Source: Bacteroidota bacterium
GTDB lineage: Bacteria > Bacteroidota > Bacteroidia > Bacteroidales > F082
Reading direction: 5' to 3'
DNA: 64,000 bases
NCBI GenBank assembly: GCA_020444415.1
Contig: JAHLLA010000001.1
Coordinates: 124,001-188,000 of the forward strand
Part shown: positions 35,153 to 55,709 of the stretch, piece by piece
How positions within the stretch are numbered: the first letter of the stretch is position 1
Layout of the letters: every line of letters begins with the position of its first letter
Translations under genes and position numbers: made by a program
The notes under the pieces: model-generated
Database searches by the model: none
What the model was told of the DNA's origin: nothing
What the model saw: the letters and a program-made list of their open reading frames with translations, nothing else

Positions 35153-38100
35153 ATGAAAAGCAAGCCAATAAGTCAGACTGACGGACATATCAATCATACA
35201 GATCACTACCGTGCGCTGTACGAATCTGCCAACGATTCTATTTTTCTGATGAATCGGGATGTATTCCTATCATGCAATCCTAAAACACTCGAAATGTTTG
35301 GGTGCAAAGAGGAACAAATTATAGGGCACACTCCCAGCAAATTTTCACCTGAAAAACAACCGGATGGAAGTTTATCCTCTGAAAAAGCACTTGAAAAAAT
35401 AAACCTGGCTTTAAAAGGACATCCCCAACGTTTTGAGTGGCTGCATAAGAAATGCGATGGAACCACATTTGCTGCAGAAGTTTCATTGAACCGGATCATT
35501 GTCAATAATGAAACCTATATACAGGCCATTGTACGCGATATTACAGAGCGAAAAAAAGCGGAAGACCAGCTGAAAAAAAGTGAAGAAACCTACAGGCTGC
35601 TCATCGAATCAACCAACGAAGGGTACTGGCGTATTGACAACCGACAGAAGACCATTGATGTAAACGACTCATTATGCCGAATGCTTGGATACAGTCCAAA
35701 TGAGATGCTTGGCAAATCCCCCTTAAGCTTTACTGACAGGGAAAACCAAAGGATATTTAAAAAACAGATTTCATACCGGGATACGAGCAAACATAGATCA
35801 TATGAAGTTGTTTTGCAGCATAAAAACGGAACAGCAATATATACCCTGTTTAACGCAACAACACTTCGTGATAAAAAGGGGAAGCCCATTGGTTCGTTTG
35901 CTTTTATAACAGATATAACAGATGAGAAAAAGGCAAAAGATCAATTGCTGGCGTTGGAGAAAAGAACAGATTATTTTGTAAATACGATGGTCGATATAGT
36001 TTTCAGCATTTCCCCAAAAGGTTATATCACCTATGTAAGCCCCAATGTAGAAAAACTTTATCACTATCAGCCCGAATTTTTAACCGGGAAGCATTTAAGT
36101 TTGACAACCCCTATTGAAGAAGTACCTAAAGCCATCGGTGCCATTAAAAAAGCATCAAGGGGTGAGTTGCTTACAAATTTCGAGATTCATCAGATAGATG
36201 GCAAAGGCAACAAAATACCTACTGAAATTAATGCGACCCCCATTATTGAAAATGGACGTATCACTGCCTTCCAGGGTGTTATGCGAGACATCTCTTCGCG
36301 AAAAAAAATTGAAACGGAATTATTACAACAGAAAATAAGTTTTGAAAACATCTTCAATAATGCCATTGATGCCATTTATGTGCAGGCGCTGGATGGTACT
36401 TTTATTGATGTGAATGATGCAGTAGTGGAAATGTATGGTTATTCCAAAAAAGAAATGATCGGGAAATCTCCAGATATTGTCGCAGCTCCTGGAATGAATG
36501 ATTTAGAGAAAATAGTAGAATACACAAAAAAAGCTGCCAATGGTTACCCACAACGTTTTGAATTTTGGGGTCAAAGAAAAAACGGGGAGATTTTTCCAAA
36601 AGACGTAAGGCAATCCAATGGAGAGTACTTCGGGGAAAAGGTTGTATTTGCTTTTGCGGTTGATGTTTCGGAAAGAAAATTAGCAGAAAAAAAGCTCAAA
36701 GAAAGTGAAGAAAAATTCAAACGGATCATCCGCGAATTAGATGTAGGTTTCTTTAGTGCTACTTTCAATGGCAAACTTTCAGAATATAACAAGGCATTTT
36801 GTAAGATCCTGGGATTAGATGCACGTAGAAATCATCAAAACATTTCCCTGGTCTACTTTTGGAAAAACAAGGAAGAGAGGGAAAGGTATATTACAACCCT
36901 TCAACAGCATGGAAGCGTTAGAAATTATACGATGAATGCTAAAAAGAAAAATGGGGAAACCATCATTCTCCAGGTAAATTCACATCTAATTGTAAATAGC
37001 AAAGGTCATTATTCAGGTATTGAAGGTACCATTTCAGATATAACAGAACAACGTGAAGCCACCGAAGCCATCATCAATAAAGAAAAACAATACCGCACGC
37101 TGTTTAATTTCTCACCCAATGGCATCCTACTTGAAGATGCTTCCGGTAAAATTATTGATATCAACCCTGCCTATTCCGAATTAATGGGATACAGCAAAGA
37201 TGAACTTATTGGCCAAAACGTAATGGTGTTAACACATCCTGATCAACAGGGAGAAGTTAAAAAAAACATACGTCAATTGCTGGAGGGTAAAACGCTTCAT
37301 CATATTGAACGAAGTGTTAAAAAAGACGGATCTTTCGCCTATATGGAATTGTCGGAAAAATCATTTACCCTCCCAAATGGCGAAAAAGGAATTATTTGCA
37401 TCGTAACTGATATAACTGAACGTATATTGGCCGAGCAAGCTTTGCAGCAAAGCGAAGAAAAATACCGGATGCTCATCGAAAACCAAACTGACCTCGTGGT
37501 TAAAGTCAATACGGAAGGAGAATTTTTATATGTGAGCCCATCCTATTGCAGGATGTTTGGCAAGACTGAAGAAGAACTGATTGGCCAGAAATACCTGCCC
37601 CTGGTTCATGAGGAAGACAGGGAACTTACCGAAATAGCAATGAAAAATTTGTATCATCCACCATATACCATGTATGTGCAACAACGGGCTCTGACGGCGA
37701 GCGGATGGAAATGGCTCGAATGGATGGATACAGCCGTGTTGAATGATCAAAAAGAGGTTATTGAAATTATTGGAGTTGGCAGGGATATTACGGAGCAAAA
37801 AAATGCAGAGTTCGAATTACAAGAGAGCCAAAGAAGGTTGTCAACGCTTATGGGAAACCTTCCCGGTATGGTATACCGGAGCTTAAATAACAAGGAATGG
37901 ACGATGCAGTTTGTGAGTAAAGGCTGTTATGAACTCACCGGATACCCTTCGGATGAACTGATTGAAAACAGCTTTAGATCCTACAACGATATCATCCATC
38001 CCAATGACCGTGATTATGTTTGGAAAACGGTTCAAAAAGCTGTTGATAATAAAACTTCATTCCAACTCGAATACAGAATTATCACAGCTCAGGATACAAT

Positions 38101-39631
38101 CAAGTGGGTTTGGGAACAGGGAAGCGGAATTTACAATGATGGTGAATTGATCGTATTAGAGGGGTTTATCAGCGACATAAACGACCGGAAACTTGCCGAA
38201 GAAGCTTTAAGAGATAGCGAAGAACGTTATAAAGGATTATTCCTCCACGCCCCGGTAGGCATTGTTACTATCGACCTGAATGGAAACCCTATTCATGCCA
38301 ATAACAAGTCTCTGGAAATTCTGGGTTCTCCTTCAGGAACTGAGACTTCAAAGATTAACATACTTTCATATAAACCCTTAATTAATGCCGGATTTGCAGC
38401 CGCTTATCAAAACTGTATTAAAACCGGTACTATCATCCGCAATGAAAGTTTTTATAAAACCTTTTGGGGTAAGGAAGTATACCTGCGCTATATTATCACA
38501 CCCATCCATGGTAAAAAAAACAAGATTGTTGGCGTGCAATGCCTGATGGAAGATATCACTCAACGAAAACTGGCAGAAGAAGCCCTCAAAGAAAGCGAAT
38601 ACCAATTACGGGAATCACAAAAAGTAGCGCATTTAGGTTCTTATGTATACGATTTATCGAATGGTACATGGGAGAGTTCATCGGTTTTAAATGCTGTTTT
38701 AGGTATTCATGAAGGTTATAAAACAGATTTTGAAGGCTGGCTTCAGATCATCCATCCTGAAGACCGGGACATGATGAAGGATTACTTTAAGAGACACGTA
38801 CTGACTCGCCATGAATTCTTTAACAAAGAATACCGTATCAGGCGAATGAACGATAAAAAAATACGATGGGTACATGGCCTTGGTGAATTGGAATTCGATG
38901 CCCATGGACATCTTATAAAAATGATTGGTACCATCCAGGATATCACTGAACGAAAACTGGCAGAGCAATCACTTAAAGAGTCAGAAGAACAACTCAGGCA
39001 ACTTACCATTTATATGGATTCAAAAACCGAAGAAGAGAAAAAAAGAATCGGAAGGGAAATACATGATGGGCTGGGACAGTTATTAACCGGGTTAAAAATG
39101 GATTTGCAATGGATTTCAAAAAAGTGGCCCAAAGAAAGTGAGTTCCTCAAAGATAAATTCAGATCAATGAACAGCATTATCGATACCAGTGTTAAGGAAG
39201 TACAGAAATTGTCTATCCAGCTTAGACCCAAAATGCTGGATGAACTTGGGCTAATTGAAACCATACAATGGGAGGCTGATCAATTTGAAGAAAGAACCGG
39301 CATTTATTGCAACGTGCAGTTCATCCCAGAAGAATTTGAAGTAGACCATGAAAGATCTTCAACTATATACAGGATACTTATGGAACTTCTAACCAATATT
39401 TATCGCCATGCAATGGCAACAAAAGTTAAGATTTCACTTGAAAAACGAAAATCATCATTTAAACTAACGGTGAATGATAATGGAAAAGGTATCAAACAGG
39501 AACAAATTGAAAGCAAATACGCATTTGGATTAATCAGCATTACGGAACGGGTAAATATGTGGAACGGACATGTTAAATTTTCAGGAAAGAAAAATAAAGG
39601 AACTACCATCGAAGTTATTATACCCTACTAA
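35153..39631 (+). CDS. Ten-PAS-domain cytoplasmic sensor histidine kinase (NarL/HisKA_3 type)
   Basis: A 1492-aa soluble kinase without membrane segments. I count ten PAS units in tandem, starting near residues 20, 145, 275, 395, 520, 645, 770, 895, 1020 and 1150, each opening with a YRxLxE-like helix and mostly closing with an RDITERK-type linker. The transmitter follows: HisKA_3 with [16 protein letters not shown] (phospho-acceptor His1304) and an HATPase with [10 protein letters not shown] and NDNGKGI. Such kinases commonly sense redox, oxygen or small ligands through heme, flavin or other cofactors; none can be named here. It is 11 bases upstream of its response regulator, a clear two-gene operon. 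TACTTTCG at 34991-34998 is a possible promoter variant. Confidence 0.93.
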
Positions 39632-39642: not shown

Positions 39643-40272
39643 ATGAAATTACTAATTGCAGACGATCATCCCATTGTAAGAAATGGTATTAAGGACATCC
39701 TTCAGGACATTTCCCCATCTTTTGTAATTGATGAAGCTGAAGATGCACCTGAAGTTGTCCAGAAGGTGATTGCCAATGATTATGATGTGATCATACTTGA
39801 TATATCCATGCCCGGAGGTGGCGGTTTAAATGCTCTAAAGCAAATTAAACAAGCCAAACCTTTAACTAAAGTACTGATGCTTAGCATTTATGATGATGAA
39901 CAATACATCAACAGGGCCCTTAAAGCAGGCGCGTCAGGTTATCTGACCAAGTCCGTGGCTTCAGAAGAACTGGAACTGGCCATTAAAAAGGTAATCTCTG
40001 GAGAAAAGTATTTGAGTTCAGAAGTGGCGTCCAAAATGGCCACCTTCATATATTCCGACAAAGAAAAAACGAAACACGAATTGCTTTCTGAAAGAGAGTA
40101 CCAGGTATTTAGTCTGCTTGCCAGGGGTGATACAACCGTTGAAATTGCTGAAGAATTGCATATCAGCCCCAAAACCGTTAGCACTTATCGCGACCGGATC
40201 ATGGAAAAAATGGGGATGTCGAGAAATTCTGAATTGATACATTATGCCATAAAGAATAAATTAATAGATTAA
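39643..40272 (+). CDS. NarL/FixJ-family response regulator
   Basis: A 209-aa DNA-binding regulator and partner of the PAS kinase. The receiver domain (residues 1-120) has the acidic pair Asp7-Asp8, phospho-acceptor Asp53 in VIILDISMPGGGG, and Lys in LTKS. The LuxR-type helix-turn-helix (residues about 145-205) reads LLSEREYQVFSLLARGDTTVEIAEELHISPKTVSTYRDRIMEKM (in pieces). It starts 11 bases after the kinase gene. Its targets are unknown; the tandem RNA-like elements begin 60 bases downstream. Confidence 0.95.
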   Translation: MKLLIADDHPIVRNGIKDILQDISPSFVIDEAEDAPEVVQKVIANDYDVIILDISMPGGGGLNALKQIKQAKPLTKVLMLSIYDDEQYINRALKAGASGYLTKSVASEELELAIKKVISGEKYLSSEVASKMATFIYSDKEKTKHELLSEREYQVFSLLARGDTTVEIAEELHISPKTVSTYRDRIMEKMGMSRNSELIHYAIKNKLID

Positions 40273-40333: not shown

Positions 40334-40650
40334 TATTTTGTAAGGATATTTCCCACATGACATTCAGTAATTACCTTATACCCAAGGGCTCTAGAATATT
40401 GTATTATTGCATTAAGGAATTACATTGGAAAGCGTTTGATATCAATATGTAGCGAACAAACAAGCCAATGAATAACAAGCAAAAGAGCACCGGTTGATTG
40501 GGAAAGTTTGTCAATTGGAAAACAATTAAACGAGCACACAGGCACCGTACAATGTAACAGAAGAATAGCAGGGAACAAACAAGAGTCTCAGGAGAATCGG
40601 TAAAACAAAAAAGAAGGGCGTAAATGTGTAGCATTTGTGCCCTTCTTCAT
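40334..40650 (+). ncRNA. Candidate structured non-coding RNA, copy A
   Basis: No protein gene fits here. The segment shares a series of conserved blocks, in the same order, with 40760-41060: TATTTTGTA at the start, CATTCAGTAATTACCTTATA (40361-40380), AAGAGCACCGGTTGATTG (40483-40500), CACCGTACAATG (40543-40554), GAATAGCAGGGAAC (40563-40576), AGTCTCA and CGGTAAAACAA (40598-40608). A long-range stem joins ACCGGTT (40489-40495) to AATCGGT (40595-40601), and GATTG (40496-40500) can pair with CAATT (40523-40527). A 16-bp hairpin (40611-40647) ends the unit. The G-U wobble pairs make sense only if the plus strand is the RNA. The promoter and ends are inferred; the family is not recognised. Confidence 0.6.
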
Positions 40651-40759
40651 TTAAAGTTGATAGCAGATAATATTTCTGTTTGAATGTAACTCGCTAATTA
40701 CAAGACTACAGCAGCCCCTTCTCCCAATAAAACAACTAATGTTGAAAACCACTCATCTC

Positions 40760-41060
40760 TATTTTGTAGGAAATATACCTACAAAACATTCAGTAAATAC
40801 CTTATAAGCTATCTTTCTTAATTGCAGTATTCTTGTTGCAAGAAATTTGCATTGTTAGGTGGGCACCAAATATGATGCAAGCAAACAAGAGCACCGGTTG
40901 ATTGCGAAGATAGTTTCAGTTGGGAAAGCAATCTAAATGAGCAAAGTTGCCACCGTACAATGCGACTATACGAATAGCAGGGAACGAATTCAAAGTCTCA
41001 AAAGAAACCGGTAAAACAAGAGAGAAAGCGTAAATGAATATCATTTGCGCTTTTTCAATT
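40760..41060 (+). ncRNA. Candidate structured non-coding RNA, copy B
   Basis: Second, diverged copy of the element at 40334-40650. Conserved blocks: CATTCAGTAAATACCTTATA (40787-40806), AAGAGCACCGGTTGATTG (40887-40904), CACCGTACAATG (40951-40962), GAATAGCAGGGAAC (40972-40985), AGTCTCA (40994-41000), CGGTAAAACAA (41009-41019). Stems: ACCGGTT (40893-40899) with AACCGGT (41006-41012); GATTGC (40900-40905) with GCAATC (40928-40933); AGTTGC (40945-40950) with GCGACT (40962-40967), the last not kept in copy A. The end is a 15-bp hairpin (41022-41036 with 41042-41056). Against copy A, four pairs in this hairpin differ on both sides yet still pair, which argues for selection on RNA structure. Confidence 0.6.
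40762..40786. repeat. Perfect inverted repeat at the 5-prime end of copy B
   Basis: TTTTGTAGG (40762-40770) and CCTACAAAA (40778-40786) flank AAATATA. It overlaps the presumed -7 region of copy B, so it could be an operator or a 5-prime hairpin; copy A has only a decayed version. Confidence 0.5.
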
Positions 41061-41092
41061 CGATATTTTTCATAGTTTTTGTATATTAAGGT

Positions 41093-41119
41093 AGGCTTCC
41101 GGTTCGGAGGCCTTTTTTT
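41093..41119 (+). terminator. Rho-independent terminator after ncRNA copy B
   Basis: AGGCTTCCG (41093-41101), loop GTT, CGGAGGCCT (41105-41113) with one G-U pair, then seven Ts. It may be the real end of a transcript through copy B, or serve a third short RNA. Confidence 0.8.
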
Positions 41120-41183
41120 ATGAACAAAACTCTCTCACCATTTTTAGCACGATATAGATTTGCATTTTTTTCGCTCGTCAATA

Positions 41184-41231: not shown

Positions 41232-41250
41232 TTTGGCGGTCTGGACGGGA
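41232..41250 (-). repeat. Distal attachment-site copy (tRNA-Asp 3-prime end fragment)
   Basis: TTTGGCGGTCTGGACGGGA, identical over 19 bases to 56408-56426, the last bases of tRNA-Asp with CCA on the minus strand. After it (41251) the similarity to the tRNA stops. Confidence 0.75.
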
Positions 41251-41379
41251 AAATTCAATGGTATCTTACTATATCTTATTCATTCATAACTGTCATATTA
41301 TAAAGTGATTAATAGAATAATTTCTTGTAATAACTTCTTAAAATCCAGCTTTAAACTGGTGTTGTGCTTCCCTTTTTAC

Positions 41380-41667
41380 ACACTTTAATAAAAAATTGTT
41401 CAGCTCAAATTTCTCATTCAAACTTACTTTCAAGTGAAATGAAATATCTTTATCGTGTCCAATTTCTTTTGTAGACATACAGGCATTACCATTGAGAAGT
41501 ATATCAACTTGCAACTAATTGAAAAAGTAAAGGAATTATTGATATATGATAAACTTACATTAAGTGAAATTGCTAACCAGACAGGCTATAGCAGTGTGCA
41601 ACACCTCTCAAACCAGTTTAAAAAAATCATGGGAATAATCCTTACAATGTTTAAGAAATTCAGGTAA
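41380..41667 (+). pseudogene. Truncated, probably frameshifted AraC-type regulator
   Basis: The readable 65-70 residues from about 41455 (SNFFCRHTGITIEKYINLQLIEKVKELLIYDKLTLSEIANQTGYSSVQHLSNQFKKIMG, in pieces) are the C-terminal half of an AraC-family DNA-binding domain, of the group that in Bacteroidota has an N-terminal metal-binding-like half and sits next to metal-efflux genes. There is no start or N-terminal domain; just upstream another frame reads NLLSSEMKYLYRV, which looks like the preceding piece joined by a frameshift near 41454. The C-terminal end (ILTMFKKFR) is also altered. It is likely the former regulator of the copper genes, now dead. Confidence 0.65.
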
Positions 41668-41839
41668 AAAACAGAAAACCAATTGATAAAGTTAAAATTC
41701 ACAGGATTCTGTTTATCCATAAATAATGTAATACTTTTAAAAAATTACGTAATAATGATCATCTGATATTGTCATTCCTTCGTAGCCTTAATTGTGTTAG
41801 TAAATCATATAGATGATAGTATTCTCTGAATCACAATAT

Positions 41840-41858
41840 GTTAAAATTTAGTTAAAAT
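41840..41858 (+). promoter_or_regulatory. Candidate operator: GTTAAAAT direct repeat
   Basis: Two copies of GTTAAAAT (41840-41847 and 41851-41858) with an 11-base period, about one helical turn, 36 bases upstream of the -7 box of the copper operon. The placement fits an activator site of an AraC-type or similar regulator. Confidence 0.4.
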
Positions 41859-41893
41859 AGCTTTTTTACATACTTAAGCACTATTATTGATGA

Positions 41894-41901
41894 TATCTTT
41901 G
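41894..41901 (+). promoter_or_regulatory. -7 element of the copper operon
   Basis: TATCTTTG, a perfect TAnnTTTG, 20 bases before the TTG start at 41922. No TTG is found at the usual -33 spacing, which suggests dependence on an activator. Confidence 0.6.
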
Positions 41902-41921
41902 TAAAGATAAGACTTGCGTTT

Positions 41922-42293
41922 TTGAAGAAAACCATTCACATATTATTCACACTTGTTTTCACAGTTATAACACTGGGATTTACGATTAACAAGCACTATT
42001 CTGGTGGTGAATTGTTTTCGTTTTCTATATTTGGTGAACCTGAATCGTGTTGTGCCGATGTATGCAACTGCTGCGACGAAGAAACACAGACCATTCAGTT
42101 TCATGCAGATTACGTTTTTTCGATTGATGCTTTCGACCACGATCAGGTTGAACTGGAATTGTTCGCAGCAGCACTTCCGTTAAGCACTATTGAAACCACA
42201 TGTGTATTATCCAACACAGCAGTTATTGACCTGGACCTGCCGCCACCCGACACTCATTCCATATTTTCTTTCATACAATTCTACCTTTTATAA
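41922..42293 (+). CDS. HYC_CC_PP family secreted cysteine-rich protein
   Basis: A 123-aa exported protein. Its start is a TTG at 41922, giving MKKTIHILFTLVFTVITLGF as signal peptide; no in-frame ATG exists upstream after the promoter. The family is named for its conserved HYC, CC and PP motifs. Here they read His25-Tyr26-Ser27 (the usual Cys is Ser), Cys43-Cys44 within ESCCADVCNCCDEE, and LDLPPPDT near the C-terminus. Five cysteines within nine residues suggest binding of a soft metal such as copper, but this is inference. The family is commonly beside heavy-metal transport genes in Bacteroidota; here it is the first gene of the copper operon. Confidence 0.75.
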   Translation: MKKTIHILFTLVFTVITLGFTINKHYSGGELFSFSIFGEPESCCADVCNCCDEETQTIQFHADYVFSIDAFDHDQVELELFAAALPLSTIETTCVLSNTAVIDLDLPPPDTHSIFSFIQFYLL

Positions 42294-42394
42294 TTGAACG
42301 GATGATTGAGATCCGGTAATGGCACCTTTTTTGGGGTGCTGTTATGCGGCTTTTTTCTATATCTTCATTTTAGTTCATTATTTAAACAAAGGGT

Positions 42395-45300
42395 ATGTTA
42401 AACACCATCATCAGATTTTTCCTTGAAAACAAATTAGTTACCATCCTGCTGTTAACCGGATTAGTAACCTGGGGAATTGTAACCTCTCCATTTGGCTGGG
42501 AGATCGGGGCCCTTCCATCCGACCCGGTTCCGGTGGATGCCATTCCCGATATCGGAGAAAACCAGCAGATCGTTTTTACCGAATGGATGGGAAGATCCCC
42601 GCAGGATATCGAAGACCAGATTTCATATCCGCTCACCACTTACCTGCTGGGAATACCGGGTGTGAAATCTATTCGTAGCTCGTCCATTTTCGGATTCTCG
42701 AGCATCTTCATCATTTTTGAAGAGGATGTGGAGTTTTACTGGTCGCGATCCCGGATTTTAGAAAAGCTGGCTTCACTGCCGACAGGCTTATTGCCCGGAG
42801 GTGTACAGCCGGCTTTGGGTCCCGATGCAACAGCTCTCGGGCAAATATTCTGGTACACCATCGAGGGCCGTGACAAAAATGGCAACCCCACCGGTGGCTG
42901 GGATTTACACGAAATCCGCACTGTGCAGGATTTCTATGTGAAATACAGCCTGAACGCGGCCGAAGGAGTTTCTGAAGTGGCCTCCATTGGAGGATTTGTA
43001 AAGGAATACCAAATCGATGTCAGCCCGGATGCGCTTAATACTTACGGAATACCGCTGCATGCCGTGATGCAGGCAGTACAGAAATCGAACCGCGATGTAG
43101 GCGCCAAAACCATCGAAATTAACCAGGCGGAATACCTGGTGCGTGGATTGGGGTACGTTAAGAATGTTGAGGATATTGAACAGGCTGTTGTTGCCGTTCA
43201 GGAAAATGTACCCATTCGGGTGAAGGACTTAGGAAACGTTAGCCTGGGCCCGGCTACACGCCGAGGAGCTCTTGACAAAGACGGTGCTGAAGTTGTCGGT
43301 GGCGTTGTGGTTGCCCGTTACGGTGCCAACCCGCTGGAAGTCATCAATAATGTAAAAGCAAAAATTGCGGACATTGCACCGGGTCTGCCTTCAAAAGTAT
43401 TACCTGACGGAACAGAAAGTCAGCTCACCATCGTACCTTTTTATGACCGTTCAGGACTGATTTACGAAACGCTTGGCACGCTGGAGGAAGCGCTTTCGCT
43501 GGAAGTTCTGATTGTCATTCTCGTGGTCATCATCATGGTTTATAACTTGCGTGCATCGCTGCTGATATCGAGTTTGCTTCCCATTTCCGTTTTAATGGTT
43601 TTTATCGCAATGCGTTATTTTGGCGTCGATGCCAACATCGTGGCGCTTTCGGGTATCGCCATCGCCATTGGAACCATGGTTGACCTGGGTGTGATTCTTT
43701 CGGAGAATATCATTAAACATACCAAAGAAGCGCCACCCGGACAAAAGTTAATCACCACGGTTTACAACGGCTCGGCAGAGGTAAGTTCTGCAATTTTAAC
43801 AGCGGTCTCCACCACAATTGTGAGTTTTATTCCGGTATTTACCATGCAGGCCGCCGAGGGAAAACTGTTTATTCCACTGGCATTCACCAAAACATTTGCA
43901 CTGATAGCCGCTCTGATTGTTTCGCTGTTTATCATGCCGGCATTGGCACACTGGTTTTTCGGCGTGCGAATCAATAGCAAAAACATCCGGAAATGGGTGA
44001 ACATCATGCTGATTCCGGTTGGAATTGCATTGTTGATCTTCGGCCAGATTTGGGGCGGAATGATGATTTTAGCGTTTGGTTTAGCGGGCACAGCTAAAGA
44101 AGTCGGGAGTCCGAAGCCGGAAAGCCGTAGACTCGAGAATGAAAATTTAAGTTGGCTGGATCGTATCCATAGAACAGTAAATTGGGTGATGGAATATATC
44201 GAAATAATCATTGTATTGGTTGGGGCTACCTGGCTGCTGGCACGATACTGGTTACCGCTCGGTCCGGCAAAAAGCCTGGTGATGAACGTACTGTTTGTAG
44301 CCATTTTGCTGGTTGTTATTTTGGGGGCATTTGCGCTGCTTGAATATTTCTATAAAAGCGTTATAACCTGGTGCCTCAACCACAAAGCAGCATTTCTTTC
44401 TATACCAACTTTCTTAATTATTCTAGGATTGACCATCTGGATGGGATTTAATACCCTGTTCGGGTTTGTTGCCCGTGGATTTGATTATGTTGGATGGAAT
44501 ATTCGTACCACGGAAGTTTGGTCATCGCTAACTCATGAATTTCCCGGAATTGGTAAAGAATTTATGCCGTCGCTCGACGAGGGTAGCTTCTTGTTGATGC
44601 CAACTTCGATGCCGCACTCCGGGATAGCATATAACCGCAAAGTACTGGGCCAACTTGATATGTTGATTTCCAATATTCCCGAAGTGGAATTGACCGTTGG
44701 AAAACTCGGACGAGTTGAATCAGCGCTCGATCCAGCGCCCATTTCGATGTACGAAAACGTGATCAACTACAAACCGGAATACATGCTGAATGAAAGCGGC
44801 CACCGTGTGCGATTTAAAGTAGATAAAGAAGATCGTTTCATTCTTGCTTTGGGCGATACGCTCTCCAATAAGGAAGCGTTGAAACGGGACATTTCACGAG
44901 AAGAATTAATTCCCGATAAGCGTGGAAACTATTTTCGCAACTGGCGTGAAGATATTCAGTCGCCCGATGACATCTGGGATGAAATCGTGCGTGTTTCCAA
45001 AATTCCGGGTGTTACTTCGGCACCCAAGCTGCAACCCATCGAAACACGATTGGTGATGCTTCAAACAGGAATGCGTGCACCCATGGGAATTAAAGTTTAT
45101 GGCCCCGATCTGACAACCATTGAAGAGTTTGGGCTGCAACTCGAAGATGTTCTGAAAACAGTTCCTTCGGTAAAAGAAGAGGCAGTGTTTGCCGACCGGA
45201 TCGTGGGAAAACCATACCTCCACCTCAACATCGACCGTGAAAAGATTTCACGTTACGGATTGAATGTGGACGATGTGCAGCGTACCATTGAAACGGCAAT

Positions 45301-46258
45301 AGGTGGAATGCAAATTACGTCCACCGTAGAAGGCCGCGAGCGTTTCCCAGTTCGGGTGCGCTATCCGCGCGAACTGCGCGACGATCCGGAATCACTGAGA
45401 AAAATACTGATGCCCACGCCAACCGGAGCGCAAATCCCTTTGGAACAAATCATCGATTTTGAATATGTACGCGGACCGCAGGCGATTAAGAGCGAAGAGA
45501 CCTTTTTGGTAGGTTACGTGTTGTTCGATAAAAACGAGGGATTCTCGGAAGTTACGGTAGTGAACGATGCTCGTAAAGCGATTCAGGAAAGAATCGATTC
45601 TGGCAACTTGGATGTGCCGGCGGGCGTGAATTACAAATTTTCGGGTAGTTACGAAAACCAGGTACGGGCCGAAAAACGATTAGCGATCATTGTGCCACTT
45701 GTACTTGGTATTGTATTCCTGATCCTCTATTTTCAGTTTAAATCGGTAAGCACGTCGCTGATGATTTTCTCGGGAATCGCTATGGCTTTCAGTGGCGGGT
45801 TTGTGATGCTCTGGCTTTATGGACAGGGGTGGTTTGTTGATTTTTCCATCTTTGGAACCAACATCCGCGAGCTATTCCAGATGCACACCATCAACCTCAG
45901 TGTTGCCGTCTGGGTAGGATTTATTGCACTGTTTGGTATTGCAACCGACGATGGCGTGCTGATGGGAACTTACCTCGACCAGAGTTTTGCACGAAATCGC
46001 ACCGATAATTTGAAAGGAATCCGCGCAGCAGTTGTAGAAGCCGGGCAACGCAGGATCAAACCTGCAGTAATGACTTCGGCTACAACGATTATCGCGTTGC
46101 TGCCGATTCTGACCTCCACTGGCCGTGGTGCCGATATCATGATCCCGATGGCCATTCCGGCATTCGGCGGGATGATTTTTGCCGCCGTCACCTATTTTAT
46201 TGTGCCGGTGCTTTACAGCTACCGCGAAGAGCGAAAACTTAAAAAAAGTCAGTCATGA
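42395..46258 (+). CDS. cusA: CusA/CzcA-type heavy-metal efflux RND pump, extended form
   Basis: Proton-driven inner-membrane pump of a tripartite system that expels Cu(I)/Ag(I) or divalent metals. The family core is clear: VDAIPDIGENQQIVFTEW (N-terminal pore domain), TMVDLGVILSENIIKH and ATDDGVLMGTYLDQSF (proton-relay helices), and GKEFMPSLDEGSFLLMPTSMP (CusA hallmark with methionines). At 1287 aa it is about 240 residues longer than E. coli CusA; the surplus is mainly residues about 530-700, with extra membrane segments (WVNIMLIPVGIALLIFGQIW and others). Its ATGA overlaps the start of the TolC-family gene by 4 bases. Copper/silver is favoured by its partners. Confidence 0.92.
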   Translation: MLNTIIRFFLENKLVTILLLTGLVTWGIVTSPFGWEIGALPSDPVPVDAIPDIGENQQIVFTEWMGRSPQDIEDQISYPLTTYLLGIPGVKSIRSSSIFGFSSIFIIFEEDVEFYWSRSRILEKLASLPTGLLPGGVQPALGPDATALGQIFWYTIEGRDKNGNPTGGWDLHEIRTVQDFYVKYSLNAAEGVSEVASIGGFVKEYQIDVSPDALNTYGIPLHAVMQAVQKSNRDVGAKTIEINQAEYLVRGLGYVKNVEDIEQAVVAVQENVPIRVKDLGNVSLGPATRRGALDKDGAEVVGGVVVARYGANPLEVINNVKAKIADIAPGLPSKVLPDGTESQLTIVPFYDRSGLIYETLGTLEEALSLEVLIVILVVIIMVYNLRASLLISSLLPISVLMVFIAMRYFGVDANIVALSGIAIAIGTMVDLGVILSENIIKHTKEAPPGQKLITTVYNGSAEVSSAILTAVSTTIVSFIPVFTMQAAEGKLFIPLAFTKTFALIAALIVSLFIMPALAHWFFGVRINSKNIRKWVNIMLIPVGIALLIFGQIWGGMMILAFGLAGTAKEVGSPKPESRRLENENLSWLDRIHRTVNWVMEYIEIIIVLVGATWLLARYWLPLGPAKSLVMNVLFVAILLVVILGAFALLEYFYKSVITWCLNHKAAFLSIPTFLIILGLTIWMGFNTLFGFVARGFDYVGWNIRTTEVWSSLTHEFPGIGKEFMPSLDEGSFLLMPTSMPHSGIAYNRKVLGQLDMLISNIPEVELTVGKLGRVESALDPAPISMYENVINYKPEYMLNESGHRVRFKVDKEDRFILALGDTLSNKEALKRDISREELIPDKRGNYFRNWREDIQSPDDIWDEIVRVSKIPGVTSAPKLQPIETRLVMLQTGMRAPMGIKVYGPDLTTIEEFGLQLEDVLKTVPSVKEEAVFADRIVGKPYLHLNIDREKISRYGLNVDDVQRTIETAIGGMQITSTVEGRERFPVRVRYPRELRDDPESLRKILMPTPTGAQIPLEQIIDFEYVRGPQAIKSEETFLVGYVLFDKNEGFSEVTVVNDARKAIQERIDSGNLDVPAGVNYKFSGSYENQVRAEKRLAIIVPLVLGIVFLILYFQFKSVSTSLMIFSGIAMAFSGGFVMLWLYGQGWFVDFSIFGTNIRELFQMHTINLSVAVWVGFIALFGIATDDGVLMGTYLDQSFARNRTDNLKGIRAAVVEAGQRRIKPAVMTSATTIIALLPILTSTGRGADIMIPMAIPAFGGMIFAAVTYFIVPVLYSYREERKLKKSQS

Positions 46259-47493
46259 AGAAGATAATAGCAATTATTATATTTTTCTCAGGGATAAGTG
46301 TTGTGCAGTCACAGTCGCTCAATACCTACCTTGAGATCGCAGCCGGGAACAACCCGGGCCTGCAATCGAAATACAAGGAATTTGAAGCCGCTTTACAAAG
46401 AATTACACAGGTAAAAGCGCTGCCCGATCCTTCGTTTTCTTTCGGCTACTTCGTTTGGCCGGTAGAAACAAGGGTAGGGCCACAACGCGCCAAATTTTCA
46501 TTAAACCAGATGTTTCCGTGGTTCGGAACCCTCCAGGCAAAAGGAGATGCCGCAGCCTTAATGGCCGAAGCCAAATACCAGGCTTTTCTTGAAGCCCGGA
46601 ACAAGCTGTTTTTCGATGTGGCGGCTGCTTATTTCCCTTTGTACGAGCTGCAGCAGATGCAGGAAATCGAACGCGAAAACATTGAAATTCTGGAGTCGTA
46701 CAAAACCATTGCTACCCGGAAATTTGAAAATGGGGCGACTCCCATGGTGGATGTACTGCGTGTGGATATCATGCTGAATGATTCACGGACCGGACTCGAA
46801 ATTCTGAATAAGAAGGAACAAGCGCTGGTTTCCGTGTTCAATAATTTATTAAACCGGAATGAAGACGAAGAGGTGATCGTTTCCGACACATTATTGGCTA
46901 AACCTGTTGATGTTGATGCTGTCAAAGATTCGCTGCTGTTGCGTAATCCGGCAATCAATGCACTCGATTTAAAAACCAGGGCAAGCAAAGTCAACGAAAT
47001 TGTTGCACAAAAACAGGGGCTTCCAAATATTGGAGCCGGACTGGATTATGCAATAGTGGGAGAACGTTCTGACCTGTCGGTCGCAGATAACGGCAAAGAC
47101 GTGATGATGCCCATGGTTTCGGTAAGCATCCCGCTATTCAGAAAAAAATATGACGCTGCCAGAAAAGAAGCACTATTCATGCAGGAAAGTTATGCATTTC
47201 AGAAAGAAAACATGCTCAATACACTATCGTCTGAATTCGACCAGACACTCTTTGAAATCTCACAACAGCTCGATTTACTGGAATTGTACCGGGAGCAGAT
47301 TACCTCCACCCGTCAATCGCTCAAGCTGCTGTTCAGCTCGTATGGCAACTCGGGTCAAGAATTCGAAGAAGTGCTGCGTATGCAGCAAAAACTACTGCAA
47401 TACGAAAAACTGATGGCCAAAGCAATGGCACAATATCATACAGCAATGGCTAGATTGGATTATATAACTGCAAAAAATACAACCAATGAATAA
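46255..47493 (+). CDS. cusC: TolC-family outer-membrane efflux protein (CusC-like)
   Basis: Outer-membrane exit duct for the CusA-type pump. 412 aa with a signal peptide (residues 1-19, ending VVQSQS). Two TolC repeats rich in long helices are visible: SLNTYLEIAAGNNPGLQSKYKEFEAA (in pieces) opens the first and LLRNPAINALDLKTRASKVNEIVAQKQGLPNIGAGLDYAI (in pieces) the second. It overlaps cusA by 4 bases and the adaptor gene by 8 bases, showing tight co-expression. It has no cysteine near the signal cleavage site, so unlike E. coli CusC it is not a lipoprotein. Confidence 0.9.
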   Translation: MKKIIAIIIFFSGISVVQSQSLNTYLEIAAGNNPGLQSKYKEFEAALQRITQVKALPDPSFSFGYFVWPVETRVGPQRAKFSLNQMFPWFGTLQAKGDAAALMAEAKYQAFLEARNKLFFDVAAAYFPLYELQQMQEIERENIEILESYKTIATRKFENGATPMVDVLRVDIMLNDSRTGLEILNKKEQALVSVFNNLLNRNEDEEVIVSDTLLAKPVDVDAVKDSLLLRNPAINALDLKTRASKVNEIVAQKQGLPNIGAGLDYAIVGERSDLSVADNGKDVMMPMVSVSIPLFRKKYDAARKEALFMQESYAFQKENMLNTLSSEFDQTLFEISQQLDLLELYREQITSTRQSLKLLFSSYGNSGQEFEEVLRMQQKLLQYEKLMAKAMAQYHTAMARLDYITAKNTTNE

Positions 47494-49288
47494 AAAGACA
47501 ATTATCACAGCTATTGTCACCCTGGTAGCAGGCTTATTACTGGGCTGGCTGATCTTTGGTGGTTCTGAAACTGAACCCACAAATGAACACCTACACGACA
47601 CAGAACTGGCAGAAGAGACGATCTGGACCTGCTCGATGCACCCGCAGATCCGTCAGCCGGAACCGGGTGACTGCCCCATTTGCGGGATGGATTTAATTCT
47701 GCTGGAAAATGAAGAAGAGGGAATCGATCCCAATGCCATCAGCATGTCGCCAACCGCCATGCAACTGGCCAATATACAGACGGCTGTTGTTGGTTACATG
47801 GATCCGGTGAAAAAGGTGCGGCTGAATGGGAAAGTACAATCCGACGAGCGGCTGGTGTATTCGCAGTCGTCTCACATTCCAGGCCGTATTGAAGAACTGA
47901 TGGTAAGCTTTACTGGGGAATACGTTCAAAAAGGCCAGGTGATCGCATCCGTCTATTCTCCTGAAATGGTGACTGCACAGGAAGAATTATTCGAAGCACA
48001 AAAAATCAGGAAAACACAACCAGCACTCTTCCGAGCAGCCAAAGAGAAGCTGAAAAACTGGAAGCTGACGCAAGCGCAAATTCAGCAAATTCTGGAGTCA
48101 GGTTCAACCAGGGAAACATTTGATATCCAGGCAGACGTTTCAGGTTATGTAACTGAAAAAATGGTCAATAGCGGTGATTACGTTAATCGCGGACAAGCCA
48201 TCTACGAAATTGCCGATCTGTCGCGGATTTGGGTATTGTTTGATGTGTATGAATCCGACATGACTTGGGTTAGCCGCGGTGATGAAATTACTTTTACCGT
48301 TGCTTCGCTACCGGGAGAAACCTTTAAAGGCGAAATCTCTTTCCTCGACCCGGTAATCGACCCGAAAACACGGGTAGCGAAAGCCCGGGTAGTGAAATCC
48401 AATCCGGGGTTGAAACTAAAACCCGAAATGTTGGCTTCCGGGGTGGTGGAGGCAGAACTGCCCAACCAGGACGACAAAGTGGTTGTCCCCAAAACCGCTG
48501 TGATGTGGACCGGCGAACGCTCGGTGGTTTACGTGAAATCGGAAACCGAAACAGCTGTGGATTTTATCATTCGCGATGTAACGCTTGGTCCGGGATTGGG
48601 CGAAAGTTACATTATAGAAGAAGGTTTGGAAGAAGGTGAAGAAATTGCTATCCATGGAACATTCAGCATTGATGCTGCGGCGCAGTTGGCCGGAAAACCG
48701 AGCATGATGAATCCCGAAGGCGGGAAGGTTTCAACAGGGCATGATCATAGTGGAATACCGATGAGTGATGAAGAAATGGAAAATAGGGATGCTGGTCAAT
48801 CTTCAAAAACGAAAACACCGGCTGAAACGCCAATGGAATTCAAAATGCAGTTCGGCAAAGTTGTTGACGGCTACCTGTTGCTAAAGGACGCTTTGGTTGA
48901 TTCAGATGAAAAGCAGGCTGAATCGGCCGCGCAAAAAACACTCGAAGCGCTTGACGGGGCGGATATGACACTTTTAAAAGGCGATGCACACAACCGGTGG
49001 ATGAAGCTGTTAAAGCCGATAAAATATAACCTGAACGGCTTGATACAGATGAAAGGGCTGGAGATGAAACGTTCGCACTTCAGTATTATTTCCAACAAGT
49101 TGACTGAAGCCATCGAAACTTTCGGTTTCCACAGCACACAGGCCAAAAGCCTGTACCTGGAATTCTGCCCGATGGCATTCGACAATAAGGGGGCCTACTG
49201 GCTAAGCGAGTCAAAGGAAATCCGCAACCCCTATTTCGGTGATAAAATGATGAAATGCGGAGAAGTGAAAAAAGAAATAAATAAATAG
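47486..49288 (+). CDS. cusB: CusB-type periplasmic adaptor with metal-binding and DUF3347 domains
   Basis: Membrane-fusion protein linking pump and duct, 600 aa. An N-terminal anchor (residues 5-25) is followed by a heavy-metal-binding domain with CSMHP (Cys49, Met51, His52) and CPICGM (Cys63, Cys66, Met68). The adaptor core shows VKKVRLNGKVQSDERLVYSQ (barrel), a coiled-coil hairpin (EMVTAQEELFEAQKIRK), and DVSGYVTEKMVNSGDYV (lipoyl). After a His/Asp-rich linker (GHDHSGIPMSDEEM), residues about 455-600 form DUF3347, with FCPMAFDNKGAYWLSES resembling a metal-handling motif. All features point to Cu(I)/Ag(I). It overlaps cusC by 8 bases. Confidence 0.92.
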   Translation: MNKKTIITAIVTLVAGLLLGWLIFGGSETEPTNEHLHDTELAEETIWTCSMHPQIRQPEPGDCPICGMDLILLENEEEGIDPNAISMSPTAMQLANIQTAVVGYMDPVKKVRLNGKVQSDERLVYSQSSHIPGRIEELMVSFTGEYVQKGQVIASVYSPEMVTAQEELFEAQKIRKTQPALFRAAKEKLKNWKLTQAQIQQILESGSTRETFDIQADVSGYVTEKMVNSGDYVNRGQAIYEIADLSRIWVLFDVYESDMTWVSRGDEITFTVASLPGETFKGEISFLDPVIDPKTRVAKARVVKSNPGLKLKPEMLASGVVEAELPNQDDKVVVPKTAVMWTGERSVVYVKSETETAVDFIIRDVTLGPGLGESYIIEEGLEEGEEIAIHGTFSIDAAAQLAGKPSMMNPEGGKVSTGHDHSGIPMSDEEMENRDAGQSSKTKTPAETPMEFKMQFGKVVDGYLLLKDALVDSDEKQAESAAQKTLEALDGADMTLLKGDAHNRWMKLLKPIKYNLNGLIQMKGLEMKRSHFSIISNKLTEAIETFGFHSTQAKSLYLEFCPMAFDNKGAYWLSESKEIRNPYFGDKMMKCGEVKKEINK

Positions 49289-49309
49289 TAATCTATAAAA
49301 CAAAGTACA

Positions 49310-49672
49310 ATGAAAAAAACAATGAAATCCATTTTGATAGTAGCTCTGCTATTGTTAGGTCTGGGAAGTCTCCAGGCACAAACTGCAAAAGCAGAGTTTA
49401 AAGTGTATGGCAACTGCGACATGTGTGAAGCACGCATTGAAAAAGCTGCTGAATCAGTTGAAGGCATTGAGTCGGCTGATTGGGACGAGGAAACGAAAAT
49501 GATCGTTGTAAAATACGATCCTGCTCAAGTGGAAACTTTAGAGATTCACAAGGCCATTGCCAAAGTAGGTCACGATACGGAAAAAGTAAAAGCGGATGAT
49601 AAAACTTATGTTGAACTTCCGGGATGCTGCCAGTATGACCGTGAGGAGGATTCAAAAAAGGAGGAAGACTAA
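49310..49672 (+). CDS. Periplasmic HMA-domain copper-binding protein
   Basis: A 120-aa exported metallochaperone-like protein. Signal peptide to about residue 24 (LGSLQAQ), then a single heavy-metal-associated domain with GNCDMCEARIEKA (Cys36 and Cys39), and a short tail with LPGCCQYDRE that adds two cysteines, followed by an acidic-lysine end. The first motif replaces the usual M-x-C with N-C. It would hand copper to the CusB-type adaptor or buffer it in the periplasm (inference from context). It lies 21 bases after the adaptor gene. Confidence 0.88.
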   Translation: MKKTMKSILIVALLLLGLGSLQAQTAKAEFKVYGNCDMCEARIEKAAESVEGIESADWDEETKMIVVKYDPAQVETLEIHKAIAKVGHDTEKVKADDKTYVELPGCCQYDREEDSKKEED

Positions 49673-49982
49673 ACAAGAGGAAAGGTCTTGGGCCAAAACA
49701 GCGGGAACCTGCCGACAATGGATACCTCTATCGAACAAGTTTCCGCATTTTTATAATACACCTTTTGTAGAGTTAATTCCACAGTCTTGTGAAAACAATT
49801 GCACAGTTTTCATTTTCAGGTATTTACCGGTTCTCATGTGAGCCAATAATATTGTAAGCAAAGATGTTCTTCGCTTTCCGTATCCTTTCTGGCATAATTA
49901 TTTTACGAGCTAAGTATTAAGAAATACAATTGATATTAGAAATAAAAATACAAACACATAAAACACTTTAAAATAAAATATC
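49673..49982. other. 310-base spacer inside the copper island
   Basis: No gene is supported here. There is one weak hairpin, GAAAAC with GTTTTC around 49793-49813 followed by ATTTTC, which could end or attenuate the cusABC transcript. No consensus promoter for the next gene is evident, though a start of transcription here is likely given the distance. Confidence 0.4.
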
Positions 49983-50549
49983 ATGAAAAAATTAGCAATG
50001 ATTTTAACAACCGTATTCTTTTTAAGTGGATTTACGGTAGAAGCCCAGATGGGCCAGATGAACAACAAACAATCAGTACAACAAGGTATGATGCAGAAAG
50101 GCATGATGGGCAACGAAATGTGCTCCATGTGCGGCAAAATGATGCAGCAGCAAATGCCCATGAAAAAATACATGATGTTGGTACATAAGCTGCCTGCCAT
50201 GCAGGAACAATTGTCGCTAAGCGATGAGCAGGTGAATCAGATGATTGACCTGCGAACGGCATTTAAAAAAGAACAGGTAGACTACCAGGCTACATTGTCA
50301 AAAAAGCAAATGCACATGAAGAAATTATTGAATAGCAATGCATCTGCCGCTGAGGTAAAAATACAAATGGAGCAGTGTGCCGATATCAAAGTCGATATGA
50401 AAGTAGCTGCTTACGAAACGGCAGGTAAAATGAAAGCCCTGCTTACAGATGACCAAAAGGATAAGCTGAAAAATATAATGATGCAGGATGACGATGATGG
50501 CAACATGATGCAACAAGGCAACAAGATGAAGAATAATAACAACCAGTAA
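49983..50549 (+). CDS. Methionine-rich Spy/CpxP-like periplasmic protein
   Basis: A 188-aa exported protein. Signal peptide to about residue 21 (TVEAQ), then a strongly Met-rich region (MGQMNNKQ, GMMQKGMMGNEMCSMCGKMMQQQ in pieces, QMPMKKYMM) with Cys47 and Cys50. The middle is a four-helix Spy/CpxP/ZraP-type fold with an LTxxQ-like motif (LSLSDEQVNQMIDLR and LLTDDQKDKLKNIM). The tail is again Met/Asn/Asp-rich. Met clusters with a CxxC suit Cu(I) or Ag(I) binding, and Spy-like proteins act as periplasmic chaperones under metal stress; both are family knowledge applied by inference. Confidence 0.85.
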   Translation: MKKLAMILTTVFFLSGFTVEAQMGQMNNKQSVQQGMMQKGMMGNEMCSMCGKMMQQQMPMKKYMMLVHKLPAMQEQLSLSDEQVNQMIDLRTAFKKEQVDYQATLSKKQMHMKKLLNSNASAAEVKIQMEQCADIKVDMKVAAYETAGKMKALLTDDQKDKLKNIMMQDDDDGNMMQQGNKMKNNNNQ

Positions 50550-50568
50550 AAAAGAAAGGAGTAACCTT

Positions 50569-50805
50569 ATGATGAATGGATATGAAAGTCATGGATGGTT
50601 CATGGGTCTTGGAATGGGCTGGTGGTGGATCATCGGTATCATTGTCTTTATCGTAGTAACCTGGTTGATAATAAAAAATGTAAACATCAAAAACAGGTCA
50701 TATTTTCCGGGAAATAAATCCTCACTCGATATCCTGAAAGATAGATATGCTAAGGGAGAGATTGATAAAGAAGAGTTTGAAGAAAGAAAAAAGGGGCTAC
50801 AGTAA
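50569..50805 (+). CDS. Small SHOCT-domain membrane protein
   Basis: A 78-aa protein with one membrane segment (GWWWIIGIIVFIVVTWLI) and a C-terminal SHOCT domain (SLDILKDRYAKGEIDKEEFEERKKGL in pieces). The N-terminus is Met/His/Gly-rich (MMNGYESHGWFMGLGMGWWW), common in copper-island versions. A good Shine-Dalgarno-like GAAAGGAG lies upstream, unusual for Bacteroidota. SHOCT segments are oligomerisation tails of unknown role. It lies 19 bases after the Met-rich gene. Confidence 0.85.
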   Translation: MMNGYESHGWFMGLGMGWWWIIGIIVFIVVTWLIIKNVNIKNRSYFPGNKSSLDILKDRYAKGEIDKEEFEERKKGLQ

Positions 50806-50917
50806 ACACGATGAAGCGTTTGAATATAGAATGGGTAATAAATGCGTCTGGTTTTTCCAACCTAAAACACAAACATGTTAGAGAAGTTGTTCCCTGCACG
50901 GATGTTTAAATAGGCAT

Positions 50918-52234
50918 ATGAGCGAATATAAAAAGAACAGCCTGACGCTTACCGGCGCCGTTTCCCTCGGTACGGGCGTGATGATCGGGGCAGCCATTTT
51001 TGCCCTGGTGGGCCAGGTGGCCGAACTATCAGGTTCACTATTCCCAGTTGCCTTTGTAGGTGGCGCCATCATTGCTGCCTTCAGTTCCTACGCTTACGTT
51101 AAAATGTCTGATGCCTATCCATCAGCCGGGGGCATCGCAATGTACCTTACCAAAGCTTATGGTAAAACCACGATTACGGCATCTTCGGCACTGCTCATGG
51201 CTTTCGCAATGGTCATCAATCAAAGCCTTACAGCTCGTACATTTGGATCATACACCCTGCAATTATTTGATGTTTCAGAAAACAGTTATTGGGCGCCTGC
51301 GCTTGGTGTTGCACTATTGTTAACGGTATTCCTGATCAATATAGCGGGTAATAAAACGATTCAAAAAACTTCGTTTATAATGGCACTCGTCAAGATCGGG
51401 GGAATAGCCGTGTTTGCGATTGGTGGTCTTTGGGCGGCGGGTTTTTCGCTTGGTGAGGCTGTTCCGTCCCATATTTCAGGTGAGTATTCAATTGCAGATT
51501 ACCTGGGGGCGCTTGCACTGGCCGTGCTGGCGTACGCCGGATTCACTACCATAACCAATAGCGGCGAAGAAATAAATAAACCTCATAAAAATGTAGGAAG
51601 GGCTATTATTATTTCACTTGCTATTTGTGCCATCATCTACCTCATGGTGGCTCTCGTTGTTTCTTCAAATCTATCAGTCGATAAAATTATTGAAGCAAAA
51701 GATTATGCACTTGCAGAAGCAGCAAGACCTACTTTTGGAAAATACGGCCTTTGGTTTACAGTGGGTATTGCCATTATCGCCACCATATCAGGGGTGTTGG
51801 CCAATGTCTTTGCTGTTTCAAGAATGACGGCTATGCTGACGAAAATGAAATTGATCCCGCACAAACATTTTGGAATGCCGGGCAGGATTCAGGTACACAT
51901 GTTGGTCTACATCATTGTGATCGCCATCGTACTTACCATGCTTTTCGATTTGACACGTATTGCATCCATTGGAATTATCTTCTACCTGGTTATGGACATC
52001 ATAATACAATGGGGTGTGCTTAAAAACCTGCGTAAAAAAGTGGAGGCCAGTGCCTGGGTGATCATCTCTGCTATTGTGCTCGACCTGGTTGTTTTAGTTG
52101 CATTTATCTGGGTTAAAGCTACATCCGACATGTTGGTAGTCATTGTGACAGCAGTTGCTTTGTTGTTGATTTTTAGCGGGGAAAAGCTGTTTTTATCGAA
52201 TCAAAAAACACCACAAGAAAATTCAAATAATTGA
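50918..52234 (+). CDS. APC-superfamily amino-acid permease
   Basis: A 438-aa transporter with about 12 membrane segments. The APC consensus helix 1 is GAVSLGTGVMIGAAIFALVGQVAEL (in pieces), with the unwound GTG-IG motif, and helix 6 reads LALAVLAYAGFTTITNSGEEI, with the FTTITN-GEE block typical of the group. The substrate is unknown; amino acids or a polyamine are likely. It sits between metal-handling genes and is followed after 4 bases by the copper ATPase, so it belongs to the same transcript. It may carry a copper-chelating amino acid, but this is only a guess. Confidence 0.85.
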   Translation: MSEYKKNSLTLTGAVSLGTGVMIGAAIFALVGQVAELSGSLFPVAFVGGAIIAAFSSYAYVKMSDAYPSAGGIAMYLTKAYGKTTITASSALLMAFAMVINQSLTARTFGSYTLQLFDVSENSYWAPALGVALLLTVFLINIAGNKTIQKTSFIMALVKIGGIAVFAIGGLWAAGFSLGEAVPSHISGEYSIADYLGALALAVLAYAGFTTITNSGEEINKPHKNVGRAIIISLAICAIIYLMVALVVSSNLSVDKIIEAKDYALAEAARPTFGKYGLWFTVGIAIIATISGVLANVFAVSRMTAMLTKMKLIPHKHFGMPGRIQVHMLVYIIVIAIVLTMLFDLTRIASIGIIFYLVMDIIIQWGVLKNLRKKVEASAWVIISAIVLDLVVLVAFIWVKATSDMLVVIVTAVALLLIFSGEKLFLSNQKTPQENSNN

Positions 52235-52238
52235 CGTA

Positions 52239-54284: not shown

Positions 54285-54295
54285 ATAATTTAAAT

Positions 54296-54682
54296 ATGAA
54301 ATACTATATCGAAAAAATCACAAATTATGGCTTTGACGAAGCCATTGAAAAAGTAACCGAAGAACTTAAAAAAGAAGGTTTTGGCGTGTTATCTGAAATA
54401 GATATCCACAATAAGCTAAAAGAAAAGCTGGATGTTGATTTCAGGAAATACAAAATCCTGGGCGCTTGCAACCCGCCCAAAGCTTACGAAGCCTTGAAGG
54501 CCAAAAACAAGATCGGCACCTTGCTACCCTGCAATGTCATCGTGCAGCAACTTGATGACAACAAAGTAGAAGTAGCGGCGGTCAATCCCAAGGCTTCAAT
54601 GATGGCAGTAAATAACCTCGGGCTGGAAAAACTTGCCGGAGAGATAAGGGGCATACTCGAAAGGGTGATTGTCGCGGTTTAA
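54296..54682 (+). CDS. DUF302 protein
   Basis: A 128-aa cytoplasmic protein that is all DUF302: YYIEKITNYGFDEAIEKVTEELKKEGFGVLSEID (in pieces), then KYKILGACNPPKAYEAL and IGTLLPCNVIVQQL. The two conserved cysteines (GACNPP and LLPCNV) are both kept and may bind a metal or haem group. The role is unknown; DUF302 genes often accompany heavy-metal efflux genes. It is the last gene of the copper operon, with a terminator about 180 bases on. Confidence 0.9.
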   Translation: MKYYIEKITNYGFDEAIEKVTEELKKEGFGVLSEIDIHNKLKEKLDVDFRKYKILGACNPPKAYEALKAKNKIGTLLPCNVIVQQLDDNKVEVAAVNPKASMMAVNNLGLEKLAGEIRGILERVIVAV

Positions 54683-54858
54683 ATTTGGAAGACTTTACTT
54701 TGTGATCTATGACTTCTGTATGCCGACCGTTGTTATTGCTGAACAATGATCATGACCATGCCTATTTGATCTGTTTCACGTTTTTTCCACATTTGTTGCA
54801 CTCTTTATTGTTAAAAAGCTGTTAAGGCTAGTGGTAAAATTGGTTGTGAAACAAAACG

Positions 54859-54884
54859 ACCCTATATTACACATAGGGTTTTAA
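54859..54884 (+). terminator. Terminator after the copper operon
   Basis: ACCCTAT (54859-54865), ATAGGGT (54873-54879), then TTT. It lies 29 bases before the next gene and about 180 bases after the DUF302 stop; I see no gene between. Confidence 0.65.
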
Positions 54885-54912
54885 TCTAATCTTAAAAAAA
54901 AGAAAACTTAAT

Positions 54913-55701: not shown

Positions 55702-55709
55702 GATTTTGC

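Follow-up and report, generated by a model that had tools for sequence, protein, structure and literature searches.

Tandem small RNA genes behind a PAS-domain kinase and a NarL/FixJ-type regulator in a Bacteroidota bacterium: a probable two-component output

Two diverged tandem segments occupy positions 40.34–41.06 kb of the 64,000-nucleotide stretch analysed here (the window), and raise the question of what they are and what governs them. A sequence-only reading had taken them for two copies of an unrecognised structured RNA of about 300 bases. The reading that we consider likely is more specific, namely that they are two-component-controlled tandem regulatory sRNAs, a proposed decoy function being its least certain part. 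To our knowledge, few Bacteroidota sRNAs have a known input signal. With its kinase, regulator and defined operator, and with a regulon that is small and computable, such a system would make Bacteroidota sRNA control directly testable.

Two conserved RNAs and their structure

The location of the two copies was confirmed on the sequence. Their alignment recovers the claimed blocks, about six in number and in conserved order, which include AAGAGCACCGGTTGATTG (18 identical bases), CACCGTACAATG, GAATAGCAGGGAAC and AGTCTCA. The sequence-only reading was right in recognising a pair of conserved, plus-sense noncoding RNAs, but it missed the promoter, the terminator and the two-component system. Its estimate of length also needs revision: the segments are conserved in tandem, but each begins with ~75 nt of promoter/operator DNA, so that the RNAs have a predicted length of ~210–240 nt rather than 300. 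The RNA features are the following:

40416–40650, + strand: predicted sRNA copy 1, ~235 nt, from conserved body and terminator; its start is an estimate, 5–8 nt past the -7 box
40489–40601, + strand: structured core of copy 1, closed by ACCGGUU/AAUCGGU, with inner stem GAUUG/CAAUU
40611–40647, + strand: terminator-type hairpin of copy 1, U tract interrupted (from sequence)
40842–41060, + strand: predicted sRNA copy 2, ~220 nt, conserved in genomes G001–G003; the transcript may continue to a second terminator near 41120
40893–41012, + strand: structured core of copy 2, closed by ACCGGUU/AACCGGU, with inner stem GAUUGC/GCAAUC
41022–41056, + strand: terminator-type hairpin of copy 2, then a T run (from sequence)
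41063–41122, + strand: element with a weak FopS-like match and a strong intrinsic terminator at 41093–41113 (terminator scan)

The RNA bodies of the same-genus genomes G001 and G003 are 90–94% identical, against 34% for the spacer, which argues for selection and not chance; between the window's genome (G000) and G002 the corresponding values are 81% and 32%. The region holds no plus-strand ORF of at least 80 aa. No Rfam family matches either copy at gathering or relaxed thresholds, and the covariance models for tmRNA, RNase P, SRP and 6S find nothing in the copies, although the 6S-Flavo model gave no match in any control genome either. Phages, plasmids and viral contigs gave no match, hence there is no sign of a mobile element; the recognisable copies amount to one syntenic locus plus diverged paralogues on contig C13 of the window's genome. 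The expectation that homologues would turn up beside unrelated genes was mostly disappointed, since the recognisable ones follow the same regulator, except for a diverged C13 paralogue.

The pairing described for the two 3' hairpins (40611–40647 and 41022–41056) is exact: four pairs differ on both sides with pairing kept, comprising, from the loop outward, three changes from G-C to A-U and one from A-U to G-C. All seven copies, from four genomes, keep the long-range stem (ACCGGUU/AAYCGGU) as well as the inner stem (GAUUG/CAAUY), and the wobbles in these stems are G-U on the plus strand, so the strand chosen earlier holds. Pair counts over the seven copies support the long-range stem (7 pairs), the inner stem (6 pairs) and the terminator, with 97.0% of cells pairing versus 94.4% in shuffled alignments and 34–42% when partners are slid; each copy folds better than its own shuffles (z ~ -2.1). 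The significant covariation that had been anticipated is slight outside the terminator. Two-sided changes affect five pairs, four of them within the terminator, which leaves a single pair elsewhere in the seven copies; the long-range stem has wobble substitutions only. Because the covarying 3' hairpin is a terminator, its covariation tells little of a special fold. A stricter terminator scan reports 41093–41113 only, the end hairpins of the copies being identified from sequence and alignment.

Promoters, predicted operators and the adjacent two-component system

The 5' conserved blocks of each copy are activator-type promoter DNA, not RNA. They lie immediately behind a kinase/regulator pair:

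35153–39631, + strand: histidine kinase with many PAS domains, HisKA_3 and HATPase_c (Pfam), a probable sensor; syntenic in G001–G003
39643–40272, + strand: NarL/FixJ-type response regulator, Response_reg and GerE (Pfam)
40339–40357, + strand: predicted operator 1 of copy 1, TGTAAGGATATTTCCCACA, 4 of 6 symmetric positions
40364–40381, + strand: predicted operator 2 of copy 1, TCAGTAATTACCTTATAC
40402–40409, + strand: -7 box of copy 1, TATTATTG, 5 of 6 positions of TAnnTTTG (consensus from PMC7366714)
40765–40783, + strand: predicted operator 1 of copy 2, TGTAGGAAATATACCTACA, perfect 6+6 palindrome
40790–40807, + strand: predicted operator 2 of copy 2, TCAGTAAATACCTTATAA
40828–40835, + strand: -7 box of copy 2, TATTCTTG, 5 of 6 positions of TAnnTTTG

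Upstream of each copy, TGTAGG-N7-CCTACA is followed by TCAGYAAT..CTTATA and then by the -7 box, at constant spacing; copy 2 has a perfect palindrome, copy 1 a degenerate one. Eighteen promoters of this type, drawn from three genera, can be aligned across 74 nt at the cost of one 1-nt gap, and the -7 box of every one matches 5 or 6 of the 6 positions of TAnnTTTG, the -7 consensus of the Bacteroidetes primary sigma factor (PMC7366714). The operators are 83–89% identical between G001 and G003. An own promoter with conserved regulator-type sites and an own terminator, two features of the two-component-activated sRNA class, are both found here. At the level of sequence, then, conserved RNA bodies, a fixed promoter architecture, terminators and linkage to a kinase/regulator pair occur together.

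As the RNA genes lie directly behind a sensor/switch pair and carry its apparent landing sites, they are probably its RNA output. Signals received by the PAS-domain kinase would cause the response regulator encoded upstream (39643–40272) to bind two sites ~20–65 bp upstream of each -7 box and to switch on both sRNA genes, the two copies being transcribed independently as terminator-ended regulatory sRNAs. That this regulator is the protein binding the sites, and that it activates, we infer; it is the probable activator of both RNA genes.

Regulator orthologues with the same promoters behind them were found in G001–G003, G026 and G037. Of 173 family genomes, six have a regulator orthologue of at least 68% identity, and full-length sites are confined to these six (Fisher p ~2e-10); the promoter stands behind the regulator in each of the six genomes with a close orthologue. 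Since sites and regulator share a locus, this co-occurrence alone shows only a conserved locus. Dispersed sites on contigs C13, C18 and C27 add support for the link to the regulator, as does a second kinase/regulator pair on C13, whose regulator is 78% identical and is followed by the same promoter and a short RNA. Promoter hits in two further genomes, G206 and G054, are partial, lie inside coding DNA and were set down to chance.

A profile of the promoter finds the two window sites and, elsewhere in the window's genome, five on C13, one on C18 and one on C27, so that the same promoter precedes further sRNAs as well as exported-protein genes. Small RNA units follow it at C13:18465, C13:31845 and C27:93, the last one truncated. 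At C13:36533 it precedes exported-protein genes, the first and the next of which have T9SS sorting domains, and at C18:1497 an exported-protein gene that is lipoprotein-like by its leader; the gene behind C13:186 is cut by the contig end and C13:859 precedes a sigma-70 region 2 fragment. The stretch C13 1–36726 (L056, L058, L057), which contains the second kinase/regulator type, the five promoters and the T9SS-sorted proteins, also carries a DUF4402/PapD-like cluster resembling a chaperone-usher pilus.

A survey of 393 genomes of the order gave, among its better hits outside the family, sites immediately following NarL-type regulators (G559, G329) and, in G347, two sites on one contig ahead of protein genes; several weaker hits lie in coding DNA and look like chance. 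In other families of the order the genes that follow the site code for proteins; it is therefore not an sRNA-only feature. Palindrome and second site recur in these families (L152 in G559, L156 in G329, L154 and L170 in G347), where they follow NarL-type regulators or precede PAS-kinase, sigma-like and CheW-like genes, which suggests an old, wider regulator site across the order.

Possible output of the RNAs and comparison with known systems

The layout is probably the one known from Pseudomonas Gac/Rsm, occurring here in Bacteroidota with an undescribed sRNA and with the usual partner protein not found in the window's genome. In the gamma-Proteobacterial GacS/GacA - RsmX/Y/Z (CsrB/C) systems, as in the window, the regulator is of the NarL/FixJ type, a palindrome of the form TGTARG-N6/7-CYTACA lies upstream, and several terminator-ended sRNAs have a similar role. 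Regulator sites of Gac/Rsm lie far upstream, unlike the sites described here, which are close to the -7 box. A NarL/FixJ-type palindrome stands, as a predicted site, beside a Response_reg and GerE protein, and resembles the GacA site of rsmY, TGTAAGCATTCTCTTACA (PMC4353343). Where the regulator drives tandem sRNAs, the module functions as Gac/Rsm does. The differences are that the sRNAs of the window adjoin the regulator gene, that their promoter is of the TAnnTTTG type, that GGA is not enriched (33 observed versus 33.7 expected in shuffles), and that CsrA (PF02599) was not found in the window's genome, which is 96% complete, whereas control genomes match. As neither CsrA in this genome nor an enrichment of GGA was found, CsrA titration was rejected for this genome and the module is not filed as a Gac/Rsm member; it would show that the design in which a response regulator drives tandem sRNAs exists without CsrA. 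We found no report of a kinase/regulator plus tandem sRNA module in the open-access literature.

Qrr sRNAs of Vibrio are likewise related sets under a response regulator, and use sigma-54 and Hfq. In contrast, the -7 boxes described here are of the primary-sigma type, and Hfq was not found in any of the six genomes searched. The FopS/GibS family of Bacteroides (RF04319) offers another likeness as a paralogous Bacteroidota sRNA family with many members; the window copies, however, do not match the FopS model, and an RbpB-type RRM protein was not found in five of the six genomes. The available part of the FopS description (PMC11697453) mentions no two-component tie, whereas the RNAs of the window adjoin a two-component system. 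Genomes with the module thus mostly show neither Hfq nor an RRM protein (RRM proteins in one of six), and neither an Hfq nor an RbpB-type partner is supported.

How the RNAs might act is suggested by a short motif, AACAAGCA. The 13 RNAs contain it 12 times, compared with 0.5 in shuffles, a figure to be read with the motif chosen after inspection and the RNA copies related rather than independent. The motif lies directly before the start codon in all three regulon protein genes with a visible start; at 659 gene starts sampled from 0.9 Mb of the window's genome, taken as stretches, it was found within 40 nt only twice, once at a regulon gene. Given the choice after inspection, the p-value computed for the motif is too favourable. 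That sRNAs and mRNA leaders carry it in the same sense hints at a partner common to both, and so at a decoy or feed-forward role. Acting in trans, the sRNAs would imitate, with their AACAAGCA-type segments, the region around the start codon of co-regulated surface-protein mRNAs and thereby sequester a repressor, much as Rsm RNAs titrate CsrA/RsmA. Taken alone, this step is tentative. The motif is absent from RNAs C13_18465, G037 and G026_1 and is matched only approximately in copy 2 of the window, and common ancestry of the leaders could explain its sharing. It is tempting to go further and envision a separately arisen, Gac/Rsm-like global switch of Bacteroidota, in which fast-evolving tandem sRNAs titrate a non-CsrA RNA-binding protein that represses surface-protein mRNAs through AACAAGCA at the start codon; we regard this extension as rather unlikely.

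About as likely as the decoy role is that the regulator-controlled sRNAs pair antisense with target mRNAs, like FopS/GibS and Qrr, an alternative whose input side is the same and whose output alone differs. The conserved CCACCGUANAAUGC and AAUAGCAGGGAAC would be the pairing segments: outside the helices, conservation is highest in unpaired stretches that hardly vary among the seven copies, and Bacteroides FopS sRNAs repress translation of target mRNAs (PMC11697453). However, neither segment is kept in the G026 or G037 RNAs, and the failure to find Hfq in six genomes also speaks against pairing of this kind. Comparison with G026 and G037 bears equally on the proposal of an RNA with intrinsic function (a ribozyme, a scaffold or something riboswitch-like), which the wording of the sequence-only reading implies and which the two stems kept in seven copies and the lack of an Rfam family would favor. 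The fold is not kept in those genomes although the module persists there; the folding score is only z ~ -2.1, covariation outside the terminator is slight, and a cis element would lack a downstream gene. We therefore find this proposal very improbable.

The wording shared by RNA units and protein leaders (promoter, AACAAGCA and start region) could also mean that the RNAs are relics of mRNA leaders, by-products of a duplicated promoter and 5' UTR of regulon genes whose coding part was lost. The C13:31845 RNA, in which ATTATGAAATCA is retained and followed by a 19-aa ORF, fits such a history, and leader descent may still be the origin of the RNA family. As an account of what the RNAs are now it is improbable, given bodies under selection, conserved stems, terminator ends and retention behind the regulator in three genera. 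Coding for small proteins is barely credible and was rejected: several copies contain short ORFs, but none stays in frame across the copies, frameshifting indels are frequent, and the copies share no small ORF. Control of the tandem sRNAs by the two-component system is compatible with either a decoy or an antisense output.

Homologues and downstream neighbourhood

A DNA search of 100 relatives found the element clearly in three same-genus genomes (G001–G003), where the order is a SelR-domain protein (msrB type), a DUF4870-like protein, the PAS kinase, the NarL-type regulator and the RNA copies. Two copies are present in G001 and G003, with tRNA-Asp next (interrupted by N in G003), and one in G002. 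In the tree of copies, first copies pair with first and second with second for G001 and G003, and copy 2 of the window groups with G002; the deepest node is unsupported (0.35). G026, of another genus, has three promoters in tandem behind the regulator; short terminator-ended units follow the first and second, and the third is cut by the contig end. G037 has one promoter in this position. RNA sequences of both have diverged beyond resemblance to the window's, so that what persists is the module (regulator, operators, short RNA and terminator) and not the RNA fold.

More distant matches were discarded for the most part. In the genome collection, a DNA pattern gave three same-genus records and isolated matches in a Dehalococcoidales MAG and in Lysobacter, which we attribute to chance, as the promoter model gives no hit there. 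The core RNA model, run on the 173 family genomes, gave weak hits outside the genus that lack the motifs or lie in coding-looking stretches, and short BLAST hits in other genera (L013–L016, L018) are mostly isolated and in coding-looking DNA. L015 is a possible exception: positions 200–350 of contig C19 in a distant genome of the order (G072) contain AAAGTCTCAAAAGATACCGG with AATAGCAG upstream, and are either a remote relative of the RNA core or chance.

Directly downstream of copy 2, the element at 41063–41122 contains a conserved TTTTCATAG stretch and then the strong terminator hairpin, and is 84% identical in G002. Its likeness to FopS, the one sub-threshold Rfam hit of note, scores 29.2 bits and so falls short of the cut-off of 56; the element could act as a further terminator for copy 2 or be a small RNA in its own right. 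TTTTCATAG and terminator also lie behind copy 2 in L021, L020 and L022 and behind the C13 31845 RNA.

Further on, a 3'-end fragment of tRNA-Asp (GGTCTGGACGGGA at 41238) and an intact tRNA-Asp (56410–56487) bracket ~15 kb of metal-efflux genes (41238–56487). No integrase-like ORF was recognised by eye. As the RNA genes of G003 directly adjoin the tRNA, followed by an orthologue of window gene 56646–57422, the ~15 kb looks like an island inserted at tRNA-Asp; G002 has the left-type junction in common with the window. On C13, a degenerate relative of the RNA 3' half (381–494, minus strand; L040), with GAATAGCAGGGAA and a GCGTAAAT-type terminator, lies directly behind the sigma-factor fragment.
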